Virus record (IMG/VR): IMGVR_UViG_3300007538_000080
Coordinates: 1 to 35,562 of that record
DNA from: a virus
Length of the DNA stretch: 35,562 bases
Reading direction: 5' to 3' (one strand)
The notes under the pieces were generated by a model that did not search any database, was not told where the DNA came from, and saw nothing but the letters and a program-made list of their open reading frames with translations. Made by a program: the position numbers and the translations under genes. This document shows positions 3,083 to 33,724 of this stretch, one piece after another. How positions within the stretch are numbered: the stretch's first letter is position 1; each line of letters opens with the position of its first letter.

Positions 3083-3630
3083 TGGCAGAGTATAAATGGG
3101 AACCAGCTGACAAGTCTAACCCTTGGGGACGCAAGAGGGCTAAGGGTACGCACTGCTCACAGGGACACGAGTTCACTGAGGAGAACACCTTCATCAGACC
3201 TTACGACAAGACTAGAGTTTGTCGCGAGTGTAGACGTAGGTATGCCCGCAAGAAGTACCAAGAGAACAAGCACTCCGGCAAGACCAAGACAAAGCACGAG
3301 CCAATTCGCATGGTGCCGATTCCAGACAGCGTGTTCCTAACTGACCTTGCTGGTGAGTACTACGCTGAACTGCAGGAAAAGCTTGCAGTGACCAAGGTGC
3401 CATGCAGAAACCAGATGGAGTTGTTCGACAACCCTGAGAAGGTGTCACAGAAACAAGCCAAAGCGGCGTGTCATGGTTGCCCTCTGATACAAGAGTGTGG
3501 TAACTTTGCAATAGCAAGCAAGCAAGAGTACGGCATATGGGGTGGCATCAACTACACAAGGAGGAGGTACAAGAATGGTAGTGAATGGTTCGACTTTAAA
3601 GAATCTAGCAGTATCTCTGCTGAGGACTGA
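3082..3630 (+). CDS. WhiB-family [4Fe-4S] protein with an N-terminal zinc-finger-like domain (182 aa)
   Basis: The C-terminal half is a WhiB-like domain: Cys108, Cys130, Cys133 and Cys139 give the family pattern C-X21-C-X2-C-X5-C, followed by GIWGG at 151-155 (the G[VI]WGG turn) and a basic tail (TRRRYKNG). WhiB proteins hold a 4Fe-4S cluster, bind the principal sigma factor and regulate transcription; they are essentially restricted to Actinobacteria and their phages. The N-terminal part is unusual for the family: Cys25, His29, Cys47 and Cys50 (CSQGHEF, CRECRRRYARK) look like the zinc knuckle found beside HNH nucleases, but no HNH catalytic residues are present. A basic linker joins the two. 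Its ATG overlaps the previous stop (TAATG), and its 3' end overlaps the next gene by 56 bp. A role as an early transcription switch is inferred. Confidence 0.85.
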   Translation: MAEYKWEPADKSNPWGRKRAKGTHCSQGHEFTEENTFIRPYDKTRVCRECRRRYARKKYQENKHSGKTKTKHEPIRMVPIPDSVFLTDLAGEYYAELQEKLAVTKVPCRNQMELFDNPEKVSQKQAKAACHGCPLIQECGNFAIASKQEYGIWGGINYTRRRYKNGSEWFDFKESSSISAED

Positions 3631-4283: not shown

Positions 4284-4301
4284 AAACAAGGAGGAAATAT
4301 A

Positions 4302-5500: not shown

Positions 5501-5654
5501 TCCTTTAATCCAAGGCAGGGGTGCGTCTGCTCAACGCACACTAGCTCCGATTGGATTATCCGTCCTCCCTCCTCCTGTTTCATCTCTACGGATAGTTAAG
5601 TTCGATTCTTAACCGGAGCACCATCACTATCAGGAGGCTATCGAAAGGAGGAAT
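5501..5654 (+). ncRNA. Structured leader RNA with tRNA-like fold upstream of the primase gene
   Basis: This 154-nt gap has no ORF but is full of complementary arms. An upstream hairpin pairs GTGCGT (5521-5526) with ACGCAC (5534-5539). A tRNA-like unit spans 5544-5623: acceptor GCTCCG (5544-5549) with CGGAGC (5614-5619), discriminator A, then encoded CCA (5621-5623). The T-arm is GTTAAG-TTCGATT-CTTAAC (5595-5613), with the canonical TTCRA loop. A central stem pairs TATCCGT (5557-5563) with ACGGATA (5588-5594). There is no D-stem and no usable anticodon; the 24-nt central loop (5564-5587) is almost all pyrimidine and begins CCTCCCTCCTCC, complementary to Shine-Dalgarno sequences. TAATCCAA (5506-5513) can also pair with TTGGATTA (5551-5558), making a pseudoknot or an alternative fold. 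Two SD-like GGAGG sites (5633-5637 and 5648-5652) follow before the ATG. It could be a tRNA relic, a processed sRNA or a cis-regulator. Confidence 0.5.
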
Positions 5655-25307: not shown

Positions 25308-25316
25308 ATTGTATCA
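25308..25316 (-). promoter_or_regulatory. Putative extended -10 promoter TGA-TACAAT, leaderless start at 25301
   Basis: Minus strand reads CCTGATACAATAGAGTC then ATG. TACAAT ends 6 nt before the start codon and no Shine-Dalgarno lies between. It would drive the connector and tail genes independently of the fibre block. Confidence 0.5.
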
Positions 25317-30224: not shown

Positions 30225-30233
30225 ATTCTACCA
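30225..30233 (-). promoter_or_regulatory. Putative extended -10 promoter TGG-TAGAAT, leaderless start at 30215
   Basis: Minus strand reads TGGTAGAATGGATTTATA then ATG; the spacing from -10 to ATG is 9 nt and there is no Shine-Dalgarno. Confidence 0.5.
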
Positions 30234-31119: not shown

Positions 31120-31382
31120 TATACTAATCCGTTCTCGAATAATAGTGTTAACGACTGAATATCGTCATACGCTGGGTGTGGGGTTGAGCTGTTTACGTGA
31201 GTCTCAAGCTGTTGAGCTGAGTATCCGTCGGCATATGGTAAGTCGCTCCACTCATCAATGCCGTTTCCAATCTTTGTTCTATTGGTGTCAAGTTCAACAC
31301 CAACTTCTCCTTGCGCGAGAATTGGGTCTTCCGCCAGCCAGCTGGCGGCAGTGTCATTCCTTAACTGAATCTGAACTGCCAC
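31119..31382 (-). CDS. Small Mtd-N-like appendage protein (87 aa)
   Basis: Consists almost only of the attachment domain: IQLRNDTAASWLAEDPILAQ, then GVELDTNRTKIGNGIDEWSD, paralogous to the first 50 residues of the 532-aa fibre. It ends LTLLFENGLV. It starts with GTG at 31382 inside the previous stop (TAGTG). It may be an adaptor that plugs the fibre-binding site. Confidence 0.65.
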   Translation of the reverse strand: MAVQIQLRNDTAASWLAEDPILAQGEVGVELDTNRTKIGNGIDEWSDLPYADGYSAQQLETHVNSSTPHPAYDDIQSLTLLFENGLV

Positions 31383-32155
31383 TAGAAGCTCCCTGCATTT
31401 CCGCCCACAAGCGGGCTAATCCCGCCGTAAAAACTATTTGACTTTCCTCCATCAATATTACCATAAGCAGCACCCTTCAAGCTTTCCAGCCACTGAGATT
31501 CCGTCCCAGTGTAGCCATCAAGCTGTGCAACTTGGTAAGCGCTTAGGCCAGTTCGTCCGTCTGTACCCTGGGCTCCGGACTTTCCATCCTTGCCCTTGAG
31601 GGAGTCAAGCCACGCCCTCTCAGTCCCGGCAAAGCCATTAGCCAAAGCAAGCTCGTAAGCAGAGTTACCTTGAGGACCCACTTCGCCCTGAATACCCTGT
31701 GGCCCATCTGCACCGATAGGCCCAGTAGGACCGACTTCACCTTGAGGTCCCTGGGGTCCCATAGGACCCATAGGTCCCGTTTCACCCTGCGGACCCTGAG
31801 GCCCAGTTGGACCGGTAGGACCTTGCTCGCCCTGCGGACCTGCGGGGCCTGTCGCTCCATCAATTCCATCAACTCCAGCGTCGCCAGTGTCTCCCTTAGG
31901 TCCCTGTGGTCCCTCAGGACCGACAGGACCTTCTGGACCCTGCTCTCCCTGAATTCCTTGTTCACCTTGTAGACCTTGTTCACCTTGTTCACCTTTCGGA
32001 CCCTGAGGTCCTGGTTTACCGTCAGTGCCCGATGCGCCGTTTCGCCCGCGACCGCTAGAGCCAACCGCTTTGTCAATGCGGGTGACTTCTTTCTCAACCT
32101 TCTCTGCCCATTCCTGAGATTGTGGAGGAAGATTACTATCTGGCCAAATAATCAT
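31382..32155 (-). CDS. Collagen-like fibre protein (257 aa)
   Basis: Residues 1-35 are an attachment helix ([20 protein letters not shown]) very like that of the S74 fibre at 12162-13343. Residues ~40-165 are about 40 Gly-X-Y triplets ([19 protein letters not shown]). Two copies of a small motif follow, [19 protein letters not shown] and [19 protein letters not shown], each ending in SLKG, known from phage collagen fibres. The end ([20 protein letters not shown]) is Gly-rich. No ribosome site is seen; the ATG lies 8 nt after a TAGAAT element. Confidence 0.85.
31660..32040 (-). repeat. Collagen-like Gly-X-Y coding repeat
   Basis: Nine-base units coding G-P/E-x triplets. Such tracts vary in length by slippage. 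Confidence 0.7.
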
Positions 32156-32163
32156 TTCACACT

Positions 32164-32172
32164 ATTCTATCA
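32164..32172 (-). promoter_or_regulatory. Putative extended -10 promoter TGA-TAGAAT, leaderless start at 32155
   Basis: Minus strand reads AATGATAGAATAGTGTGAA then ATG (8-nt spacing). It lies just after the terminator of the small RNA, so the fibre block would have its own promoter. Confidence 0.5.
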
Positions 32173-32179
32173 TTAGGCT

Positions 32180-32217
32180 AAAGAAAACCCGCCCCGGAGA
32201 GGACTCAACAGGGCGGG
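32180..32217 (-). terminator. Rho-independent terminator of the small RNA/glutaredoxin unit
   Basis: Stem CCCGCCC (32217-32211 read on minus) with GGGCGGG (32194-32188), followed by TTTTCTTT. The 16-nt loop is itself CU-rich (TCCTCTCC). Confidence 0.85.
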
Positions 32218-32261
32218 CATCTAGTGCACTACTTACAGTTGCAGAAGGAGGAGCCGCAACT
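32180..32261 (-). ncRNA. Candidate phage small RNA with anti-Shine-Dalgarno loop
   Basis: From the predicted start at A32261 the RNA opens directly with a perfect 6-bp hairpin, AGTTGC (32261-32256) with GCAACT (32242-32237). Its 13-nt loop is GGCTCCTCCTTCT. CTCCTCCTT is complementary to AAGGAGGAG and mimics the 16S rRNA tail core CCTCCTTTCT. A palindrome TAGTGCACTA (32222-32231) follows, then the terminator. There is no ORF. A TGG-TATAAT promoter lies 7 nt before the start. C-rich loops that bind SD sites are known in bacterial sRNAs such as actinobacterial 6C RNA; the family here is not recognised. It could instead be only the 3' UTR of the glutaredoxin mRNA. Confidence 0.5.
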
Positions 32262-32267
32262 AAATAT

Positions 32268-32276
32268 ATTATACCA
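32268..32276 (-). promoter_or_regulatory. Extended -10 promoter TGG-TATAAT of the candidate small RNA
   Basis: A perfect TATAAT with TGG extension in the gap after the glutaredoxin stop; no gene follows before the terminator, so its product would be the small RNA. The 15-mer GGTATAATATATTTA is shared with 8391-8405 on the plus strand. Confidence 0.6.
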
Positions 32277-32286
32277 CGACATTAAA

Positions 32287-32517
32287 CTATGCAGCCTTGA
32301 GGGACTGGAGCATATCTAGCCTAAAACCGCTCCAGAGGCTCTCTCCGGCCTTTACGATTGGAGCTTGGGTAAATCCCTTAGCCCTGACCATTTCGTAAGC
32401 CTCAGGGTCATCCTGCAGGTTTACTTCTTCAAAATCGATAAACTCTCTTTTCAGGTACCTCTTAGTGGTGTCACACTGTGGGCAAGCTGGCAAAGTATAA
32501 ACAGTTACTTTAGACAT
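32287..32517 (-). CDS. Glutaredoxin / NrdH-like redoxin (76 aa)
   Basis: Thioredoxin fold with the redox motif CPQC at residues 12-15 (VYTLPACPQCDTTKRYL), the cis-Pro segment FTQAPIV near 50-55 and the tail SGFRLDML typical of NrdH. It would reduce ribonucleotide reductase or other disulfides in the cytoplasm. It has an excellent AGAGGAGGAAA site and its own TATAAT. It is bounded by terminators on both sides, so it behaves as an independent insert in the structural operon. Confidence 0.88.
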   Translation of the reverse strand: MSKVTVYTLPACPQCDTTKRYLKREFIDFEEVNLQDDPEAYEMVRAKGFTQAPIVKAGESLWSGFRLDMLQSLKAA

Positions 32518-32563: not shown

Positions 32564-32597
32564 CAGAAACAGAAACCCCCCACCCGAAGGTGAGGGG
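32564..32597 (-). terminator. Terminator after the major capsid gene, UUCG tetraloop
   Basis: Minus strand CCCCTCACC-TTCG-GGTGGGGGG forms a 9-bp stem (one G-T pair) closed by a very stable C(UUCG)G loop, followed by TTTCTGTTTCT. It starts 26 nt after the capsid stop. Confidence 0.9.
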
Positions 32598-32623
32598 CTC
32601 TGTAACCAAGAAAGAAGGTTAGA

Positions 32624-33724
32624 TTATTCGCCTGCTCCAGTGGAAGCCATGGTGCCAGCAGGCACAATGAAGCCACCAGTAGCGATGTGACGGATTCTCA
32701 TCTCCCAGTCATCGTTGTCGAATGAACCTTCGCGGGCTGGAACTTCTCCGCCGCCGATGTACATTCCACCGTTTGACTTGATACGTAGCTCAGGGCTCTC
32801 GTAACCGCGCAAGAAGCCTAGGGCCAATGCTGGGTTGAGGGACTGTCCTGGAACTGGAATCAAGAACCAGTAGTTGCCGGAACCAGAGTTAATCTTGGTT
32901 AGCCAGTCGTTAACTACGATGGTTACGCGTGAACCGATTGGGTTGGCAGAGATGGTGACGGTTGAGCCGTCTCCGGTGCCAGTCTGGGTGCGGACTTCCT
33001 GCACAGCAAGAATCTTGCGAGCAGTCATCTCTAGGCCACGAGGCACAACTAGTGCGAACTGAGTGATTGGGGTAATCAGCTTGCCGTTGAAGGTCTGCCT
33101 GTTGGCTGCATCGATTGCATCCTCAAGTGCCTCAAGGGTAAGTACTGGGTTACCTGAAATCAAGTTCTGGTTTCCGGACTTGAAGTTGGTGGTGTTTAGG
33201 CCAGAAGCTGAAACCAATTGCTTGGTAACTTCCTCGTCCTCTTTGCCAGCAGCCTTCTGTGCCATCTCTAGTGGTAGACGCTCTAGTAGACCAATCTGTC
33301 CGTCGTTAACGATGGACTCCCATGAGAAGCGGATTCTTTGTCCGGCCTTCTTCACGCGCATGGTCGACTCGGTTACGTTGAACCAACCAGCGGTTGGGTA
33401 CTCGTCGTACTCGCCAACGGTAGGCAGTGAGCCCTCGCGGAAAGTGTCACCCTGGTTGTCCTCACCAGCGTCGTCGTAACGAAGAGCCTGGAAGGTAACT
33501 GGGCGGAAGTCATCTACAACTAGGCGAGTTGCGAACTGGTCCCACACGCGTGGCTGAGCTGCATACTCGTCAAGTAGAATCTTGTTTAGGGTTGGGACTA
33601 GTAGCTCTGGTAGGTCGCTTGTGGCGATACCTTCCTGAAGCTTTAGCTTGTCCATTCTGTCGCCGCGTAGAGCGCCCTCAAGGAGCTTAGCTGCCTCTAG
33701 CTGGCGTGGGGTAATGTTAGTCAT
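32624..33724 (-). CDS. Major capsid protein, HK97 fold (366 aa)
   Basis: Order (after protease/scaffold and decoration protein), size and a strong terminator mark this as the major head subunit. The N-terminal arm (TNITPRQLEAAKLLEGALRG) is helical; FREGSLPTVGEYDEYPTAGW is the E-loop region, and ALVVPRGLEMTARKILAV is the P-domain spine pattern. No large protease-type N-terminal delta domain is seen, consistent with a separate scaffold. AAGGAAATAGAAA precedes the ATG. Confidence 0.85.
   Translation of the reverse strand: MTNITPRQLEAAKLLEGALRGDRMDKLKLQEGIATSDLPELLVPTLNKILLDEYAAQPRVWDQFATRLVVDDFRPVTFQALRYDDAGEDNQGDTFREGSLPTVGEYDEYPTAGWFNVTESTMRVKKAGQRIRFSWESIVNDGQIGLLERLPLEMAQKAAGKEDEEVTKQLVSASGLNTTNFKSGNQNLISGNPVLTLEALEDAIDAANRQTFNGKLITPITQFALVVPRGLEMTARKILAVQEVRTQTGTGDGSTVTISANPIGSRVTIVVNDWLTKINSGSGNYWFLIPVPGQSLNPALALGFLRGYESPELRIKSNGGMYIGGGEVPAREGSFDNDDWEMRIRHIATGGFIVPAGTMASTGAGE

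Follow-up and report, generated by a model that had tools for sequence, protein, structure and literature searches.

A conserved phage small RNA gene with an anti-Shine-Dalgarno loop and its proposed role in an early-to-late translation switch

Organization of the locus

The DNA analyzed here comes from an IMG/VR virus record and is referred to as the window, a single stretch of 35,562 nt. Its plus strand carries replication and other early-type genes (helicase, WhiB, nuclease, AAA/Sak4-like, DUF669, and DUF3987 primase-like), while the structural genes lie on the minus strand. Because the window encodes a WhiB protein (PF02467) and its capsid protein finds its nearest matches in phages of Actinobacteria, plus one Stenotrophomonas phage, the host is likely an actinobacterium. 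Between the major capsid protein gene and a collagen-like tail gene, the minus strand holds a compact unit made of a promoter, a hairpin, and a terminator, with the following features:

32624 to 33724, minus strand: major capsid protein gene (PF25209, phrog_133)
32573 to 32600, minus strand: terminator after the capsid gene, which splits the capsid gene from the RNA unit
32287 to 32517, minus strand: glutaredoxin-like gene (PF00462), upstream of the RNA, with the strong Shine-Dalgarno (SD) sequence AAGAGGAGG
32268 to 32276, minus strand: promoter P1, extended -10 element TGGTATAAT, predicted +1 at about 32261 (direct sequence reading)
32180 to 32261, minus strand: small RNA gene of about 82 nt, predicted ends (R1 covariance model and fold)
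32237 to 32261, minus strand: 5' hairpin with the 8-bp stem AGUUGCGG/CUGCAACU (compensatory changes in relatives)
32261 to 32254, minus strand: 5' arm of the hairpin, AGTTGCGG (direct reading)
32245 to 32253, minus strand: 9-nt anti-SD loop, DNA CTCCTCCTT, RNA CUCCUCCUU (unpaired; core constant while the stem varies)
32244 to 32237, minus strand: 3' arm of the hairpin, CTGCAACT (direct reading)
32231 to 32222, minus strand: palindrome TAGTGCACTA in the short linker between hairpin and terminator (direct reading)
32188 to 32217, minus strand: bulged intrinsic terminator with the GC-rich stem CCCGCCCTG..UU..GAG/CTCCGGGGCGGG, in RNA CCCGCCCUG-UU-GAG...CUCCGGGGCGGG (helix covariation)
32180 to 32187, minus strand: U tract of the terminator, TTTTCTTT (direct reading)
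32164 to 32172, minus strand: promoter P2, TGATAGAAT, 8 nt upstream of the ATG of the tail gene (mRNA predicted to be near-leaderless)
31382 to 32155, minus strand: collagen-like tail gene (PF01391), downstream, the constant neighbor of the RNA

The original prediction described this unit as a promoter followed by a perfect 6-bp hairpin with a 13-nt loop, a palindrome, and a strong terminator, with no open reading frame. Direct reading of the sequence bears out the extended -10 promoter with its predicted +1, as well as the palindrome; a good -35 element was looked for at P1 and none was seen. The hairpin is present, but its dimensions had to be revised: G.U and G-C pairs lengthen the stem to 8 bp, so the loop spans 9 nt and not 13. 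The strong terminator is there too, in the shape of a bulged hairpin with UU. Overall, the first observation is correct, and it was understated. An 84-nt RNA read from the unit folds with a minimum free energy of -32.7 kcal/mol (z -3.6 versus dinucleotide shuffles), its loop bases are unpaired with a probability of at least 0.99 in the predicted fold, and the R1 covariance model described below scores the unit at 71.7 bits (32180 to 32263).

Two other readings of the same letters were considered and rejected. The unit does not encode a small peptide: as had been claimed, the minus strand from 32156 to 32286 lacks any frame of at least 60 aa, frame 1 is closed, an 8-codon TTG frame alone spans the hairpin, and the stem changes among relatives are compensatory, not codon-wise. 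A plus-strand RNA, whose hairpin would show AAGGAGGAG, is at odds with the promoter, the terminator, and the covariance model, all of which are on the minus strand.

Conservation of the unit and its occurrence in other phages

Viral loci were gathered via the capsid and glutaredoxin proteins, and blastn comparisons among them revealed identical loops on wildly different stems. The covariance model R1, trained on 22 sequences, recovers the unit in 65 viral loci besides the window, many of them outside the training set. The RNA is present in all 64 loci that reach the start of the collagen-like tail gene, which never occurs without it; the 65th unit sits at a contig end. Each of the 14 long relatives carries exactly one copy. 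The original prediction would have been refuted, among other outcomes, had relatives with the same neighboring genes shown no conserved stem and loop; the result came out strongly opposite.

The structure is conserved by covariation. Across 44 distinct sequences, all six modeled hairpin pairs show compensatory changes, with 97% paired, and in the model that joins hairpin and terminator 98.4% of cells are paired, with double changes at 7 of 8 terminator pairs; the terminator helix is 99.5% paired, with double changes at 8 of 10 pairs. The covariation score is 0.645 versus 0.185 in shuffles (none of 500 as high), and sliding the pairing lowers it to at most 0.10. The loop measures 9–11 nt in relatives, where CUCCU near its 3' side is constant and the nucleotides 5' of it vary freely (CUC, GCC, UCU, or UUA). 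In the terminator, the bulge G-UU-GAG/CUC-C is nearly invariant and the outer pairs change. A -10 box is found in 58 of 59 distinct units, 12–18 nt before the loop core and mostly at 14–17 nt; its TG extension is conserved (T 0.83, G 0.91), whereas no conserved -35 element was found among the 59 units. By sequence and conservation, the unit is an independent transcription unit with its own promoter and terminator, and we regard it as almost certainly a real, conserved small RNA gene.

Many of the longer members (loci L029, L031, L056, L054, L041, L014, and others) have in common a linker, GUUGUGUGUG, between hairpin and terminator; the Stenotrophomonas phage Jojan60 has a similar CUUGUGUGUC after its hairpin. 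The bulged terminator, CCCCG-UY-GAG...CUCCGGGG, whose GAG/CUC is preceded by a two-base bulge that contains a pyrimidine, is seen in the window (32188 to 32217) and in loci L213, L225, L221, L282, and L104; it recurs in unrelated phages, often 3' of a CU-rich anti-SD stretch.

The loop-plus-terminator pattern retrieves 75 stretches from IMG/VR, about 50 of which are clear members; the weak loci L213, L225, L221, L282, and L104 match mainly via the terminator. Bacterial and archaeal genomes totaling 257 Gb contain this pattern in 114 stretches, and the 80 loci checked gave no model match at E <0.1, so that a chromosomal origin was set aside; a capsid-protein search found no prophage relative. 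The looser pattern CTCCTTN{5,35}CCTGTTGAG was discarded, as among the matches listed most were due to chance.

No relative among cultured phages was detected by nucleotide BLAST; counterparts there came instead from a protein search (capsid identity 23–43%) combined with inspection of the gap that follows the capsid gene. This gap holds a CCUCC-loop hairpin in the Clavibacter phage CN1A (R1 24.8 bits, E 3.8e-4), in Jojan60 (TTGGCG-TTTCCTCCTTTC-CGCCAA, R1 11.8 bits), in the Pseudanabaena phage Pan2, and in the Microbacterium phage PhillyPhilly. In the Arthrobacter phages Anansi and Molivia, TTCCTCC forms the terminator loop and the stems differ, and in the Microbacterium phage Lyell, CTCTCCTCCTCTCCTCTC lies within a terminator-like hairpin; TripleJ, LuckyBarnes, BIM BV-113, and Commonplace have no unit in the capsid gap. 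The top R1 matches in Jojan60 and Anansi (18.8–19.7 bits) cover the terminator only and were left out of the counts. For CCTCC hairpins with a stem of at least seven pairs, the density in capsid gaps is 27 times that in the rest of these loci, a comparison whose outside part is mostly coding; the better control is the reverse strand of the capsid gaps, where none was found. These units of cultured phages may be either homologous or convergent.

A second, unrelated lineage of podovirus-like phages (terminase phrog_2, portal-like phrog_332/1216), met while testing the bulged terminator, has a promoter-hairpin-terminator unit between the terminase and the next genes (portal), as in loci L471, L501, L456, L221, L225, and L568-L647. 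Its loops, for example ACCUCCUUCA or UCUCCUUC, sit on different stems, and anti-SD words occur in the loops of 16 of 48 distinct units versus 3.1 in shuffles (maximum 8). Cultured relatives of this terminase infect mostly Proteobacteria.

Shine-Dalgarno targets and late-gene promoters

The loop had been proposed to match SD sequences of early genes. It is indeed an anti-SD sequence, and the SDs complementary to it cluster on early genes, three of which are the predicted targets:

3558 to 3567, plus strand: SD AAGGAGGAGG of the nuclease gene (ATG at 3575; sequence complementarity)
4288 to 4295, plus strand: SD AAGGAGGA of the Sak4-like AAA gene (PF13479; loop duplex -12.7 kcal/mol)
5645 to 5652, plus strand: SD AAGGAGGA of the DUF3987 primase-like gene (loop duplex -12.7 kcal/mol)

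The SD of the nuclease gene is real, and AAGGAGG precedes both the Sak4-like and the primase-like genes, as well as the DUF669 gene. The window contains seven copies of AAGGAGG, a number not above chance; all seven are on the plus strand and four are early-gene SDs. In the window as a whole, SDs are strong on early genes and weak on late genes, with some strong-SD genes on the late strand as well, such as the glutaredoxin gene, whose SD forms a duplex of -13.1 kcal/mol with the RNA loop.

The same asymmetry is seen in 13 genomes that are related and so are not independent tests: with gene starts taken from a simple ORF method that chooses the best-SD start, 149 of 335 opposite-strand genes (44%) have a strong SD versus 53 of 447 same-strand genes (12%), an odds ratio of 6.0 (P 4.6e-25), compared with 1.9 for a control stretch shifted 30 nt upstream. 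The direction is the same in 13 of 13 genomes, weakly so in G006, G007, G009, and G012. In a swap test, the early SDs of a phage are matched slightly better by the loop of that phage than by foreign loops (P 0.02). Strong early SDs may have other causes, and since the loop is generic, specific targets cannot be named.

Late genes also differ in their promoters. In 47 of 55 related loci, a P2-type -10 box is separated from the tail-gene start by 6–9 nt, a spacing from which the tail-gene mRNA is predicted to be almost leaderless, and near-leaderless -10 boxes number 23 on the same strand versus one on the opposite strand in the 13 genomes. Late-strand genes of the window often have an extended -10 element 6–10 nt before the start (minus strand, 32164 to 32172, 25308 to 25316, and 30225 to 30233), a spacing that predicts near-leaderless mRNAs for them. 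The motif TGNTANAAT has 12 sites in the window versus 4.1 expected; given that 10 of the 12 are on the late strand, P1 resembles late-gene promoters. It resembles a host-type promoter too, and could fire early.

Known small RNAs, proposed mechanism, and alternatives

Rfam 15 gives no gathering-score match in the window, and in six relatives and five cultured-phage loci it finds two tRNAs and nothing else at that score; in Clavibacter phage CN1A (locus L400, 1911 to 1984), Rfam places a second tRNA by the annotated tRNA-Trp, absent from the feature table of the record. Weak matches were dismissed as similarity of layout: alpha-r14/cuckoo RNA (RF02344) at 17.6 bits versus a gathering score of 58.8, anti-hemB RNA (RF02837) at 20.1 versus 49.5, and the 23S-methyl motif (RF01065) at 26.7 versus 50. 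The likeness to the anti-hemB RNA of Burkholderia and the 23S-methyl motif is weak and concerns the full-length layout of 5' hairpin and terminator, to which anti-hemB adds a CU-rich loop in the 5' hairpin.

Closer functional parallels exist. The B11/6C sRNA of mycobacteria and other Actinobacteria pairs C-rich loops with G-rich SD or UTR sequences and represses translation, as shown with compensatory mutants for B11 (PMC10470900; Mai et al. 2019 cited therein). Like the phage RNA, it is small, belongs to the same host phylum, and sets a C-rich hairpin loop against SDs; however, 6C/B11 is chromosomal and has two hairpins with C-run loops, whereas the phage RNA has a single CUCCUU loop, and for this family cmscan gave neither a gathering-score match in the window nor a match at E up to 5 in the element. 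NfeR1/alpha-r14 carries constant CCUCCUCCC anti-SD motifs that occlude the ribosome binding site of mRNAs (PMC10746234), and shares with the phage RNA an unpaired, constant anti-SD motif on variable stems, but it resides on alphaproteobacterial chromosomes and has three CCUCCUCCC hairpins, where the phage unit has one anti-SD hairpin and a terminator. Phages are known to encode small RNAs, including OOP, c4, PreS, and others (reviewed in PMC12197685); c4 loop sequences block a ribosome binding site, yet c4 is specific to ant mRNA, and a keyword search of the review text returned no C-rich loop, Actinobacteria, or capsid context. In T4, the endoribonuclease RegB cleaves early mRNAs at their GGAG SDs and so eliminates them (PMC3014915), a possible functional parallel in which early phage mRNAs are inactivated via the SD by a protein nuclease and not by an RNA. 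With its exposed, conserved anti-SD loop and covarying stems, the unit has the hallmarks of the anti-SD sRNA class; it is real, conserved, and not in Rfam, and would work like known anti-SD sRNAs while belonging to none of the named families.

From the observed sequence, structure, conservation, and SD asymmetry of the unit, we infer its transcription and timing, pairing in the cell, and a switch, as follows. Host RNA polymerase would start at the extended -10 of P1, as sequence and conservation suggest, and stop at the bulged intrinsic terminator, releasing an RNA of about 60–90 nt whose 5' hairpin, by the evidence of covariation, would display the constant anti-SD loop CUCCU(U). The loop would then pair with SDs and block 30S binding, as complementarity and tested bacterial sRNAs of like design lead us to expect. 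Made from the late region, the RNA would silence the early genes of the phage together with host mRNAs that depend on an SD, and translation of the late structural genes would carry on from weak SDs or near-leaderless starts. Because the strong SDs sit on the early strand and late genes are weak-SD or near-leaderless, the main effect would be early shutoff, although host mRNAs are equally possible targets. That the RNA acts in trans by pairing with SDs we consider likely; a trans-acting anti-SD sRNA serving an early-to-late translation switch is, as an overall explanation, reasonably probable, and that this switch is its main role has somewhat better than even chances.

The principal competitor holds that the RNA mainly serves host takeover through a general drop in SD-led host translation, the SD difference within the phage having another cause. 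The loop matches a generic anti-SD and no single phage gene, units occur in phages of hosts as unlike as Clavibacter, Stenotrophomonas, and Pseudanabaena, and mycobacterial B11 acts on many mRNAs (PMC10470900); yet the weak SDs and near-leaderless starts of late genes suit an internal switch, and the fit between own loop and own early SDs, itself weak, points the same way. We judge host takeover as the main job rather unlikely. An action in cis, as an insulator or attenuator between the capsid gene and the tail operon, would explain why the unit always precedes the tail gene and ends in a strong terminator, but the unit has a promoter of its own in front and another one after it, an insulator has no need of an anti-SD loop kept constant while the stem covaries, and in several relatives a terminator is already present immediately upstream; this reading has very little probability.

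Era and some MazF toxins recognize the 3'-end region of 16S rRNA, and the loop might mimic that end and titrate a protein that binds or cuts there (e.g., Era or a MazF-type RNase). The 16S sequence CACCUCCUU is reproduced exactly in some loops (locus L025), but the bases 5' of CUCCU vary more than one would expect of a protein site covering ACCUCC, and the rRNA helix is not copied; we find such mimicry improbable. A chance CU-rich hairpin between genes, which the single window could not exclude and with which the unremarkable AAGGAGG count agrees, has next to no probability because of the covariation far above shuffles, the conservation, and the association with one gene in 64 of 64 loci.

Anti-SD sRNAs are known from bacterial chromosomes, and we came across no description of such a family conserved in phages; the open-access literature searched contained no phage anti-SD sRNA, which is no proof that none has been described. 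If the translation switch is true, an RNA of 60–90 nt would do the job for which T4 has a dedicated nuclease, striking directly at the SD and sparing late mRNAs that are near-leaderless or have a weak SD, and it offers a possible cause for differences in SD strength within phage genomes. More tentatively, late-region anti-SD sRNAs may be a widespread early-to-late switch of tailed phages, occurring in two or more unrelated lineages, and late genes with weak SDs or near-leaderless starts would escape it. The unit provides a concrete RNA to probe in environmental actinophages and in cultured phages of Clavibacter, Microbacterium, Arthrobacter, and Stenotrophomonas.
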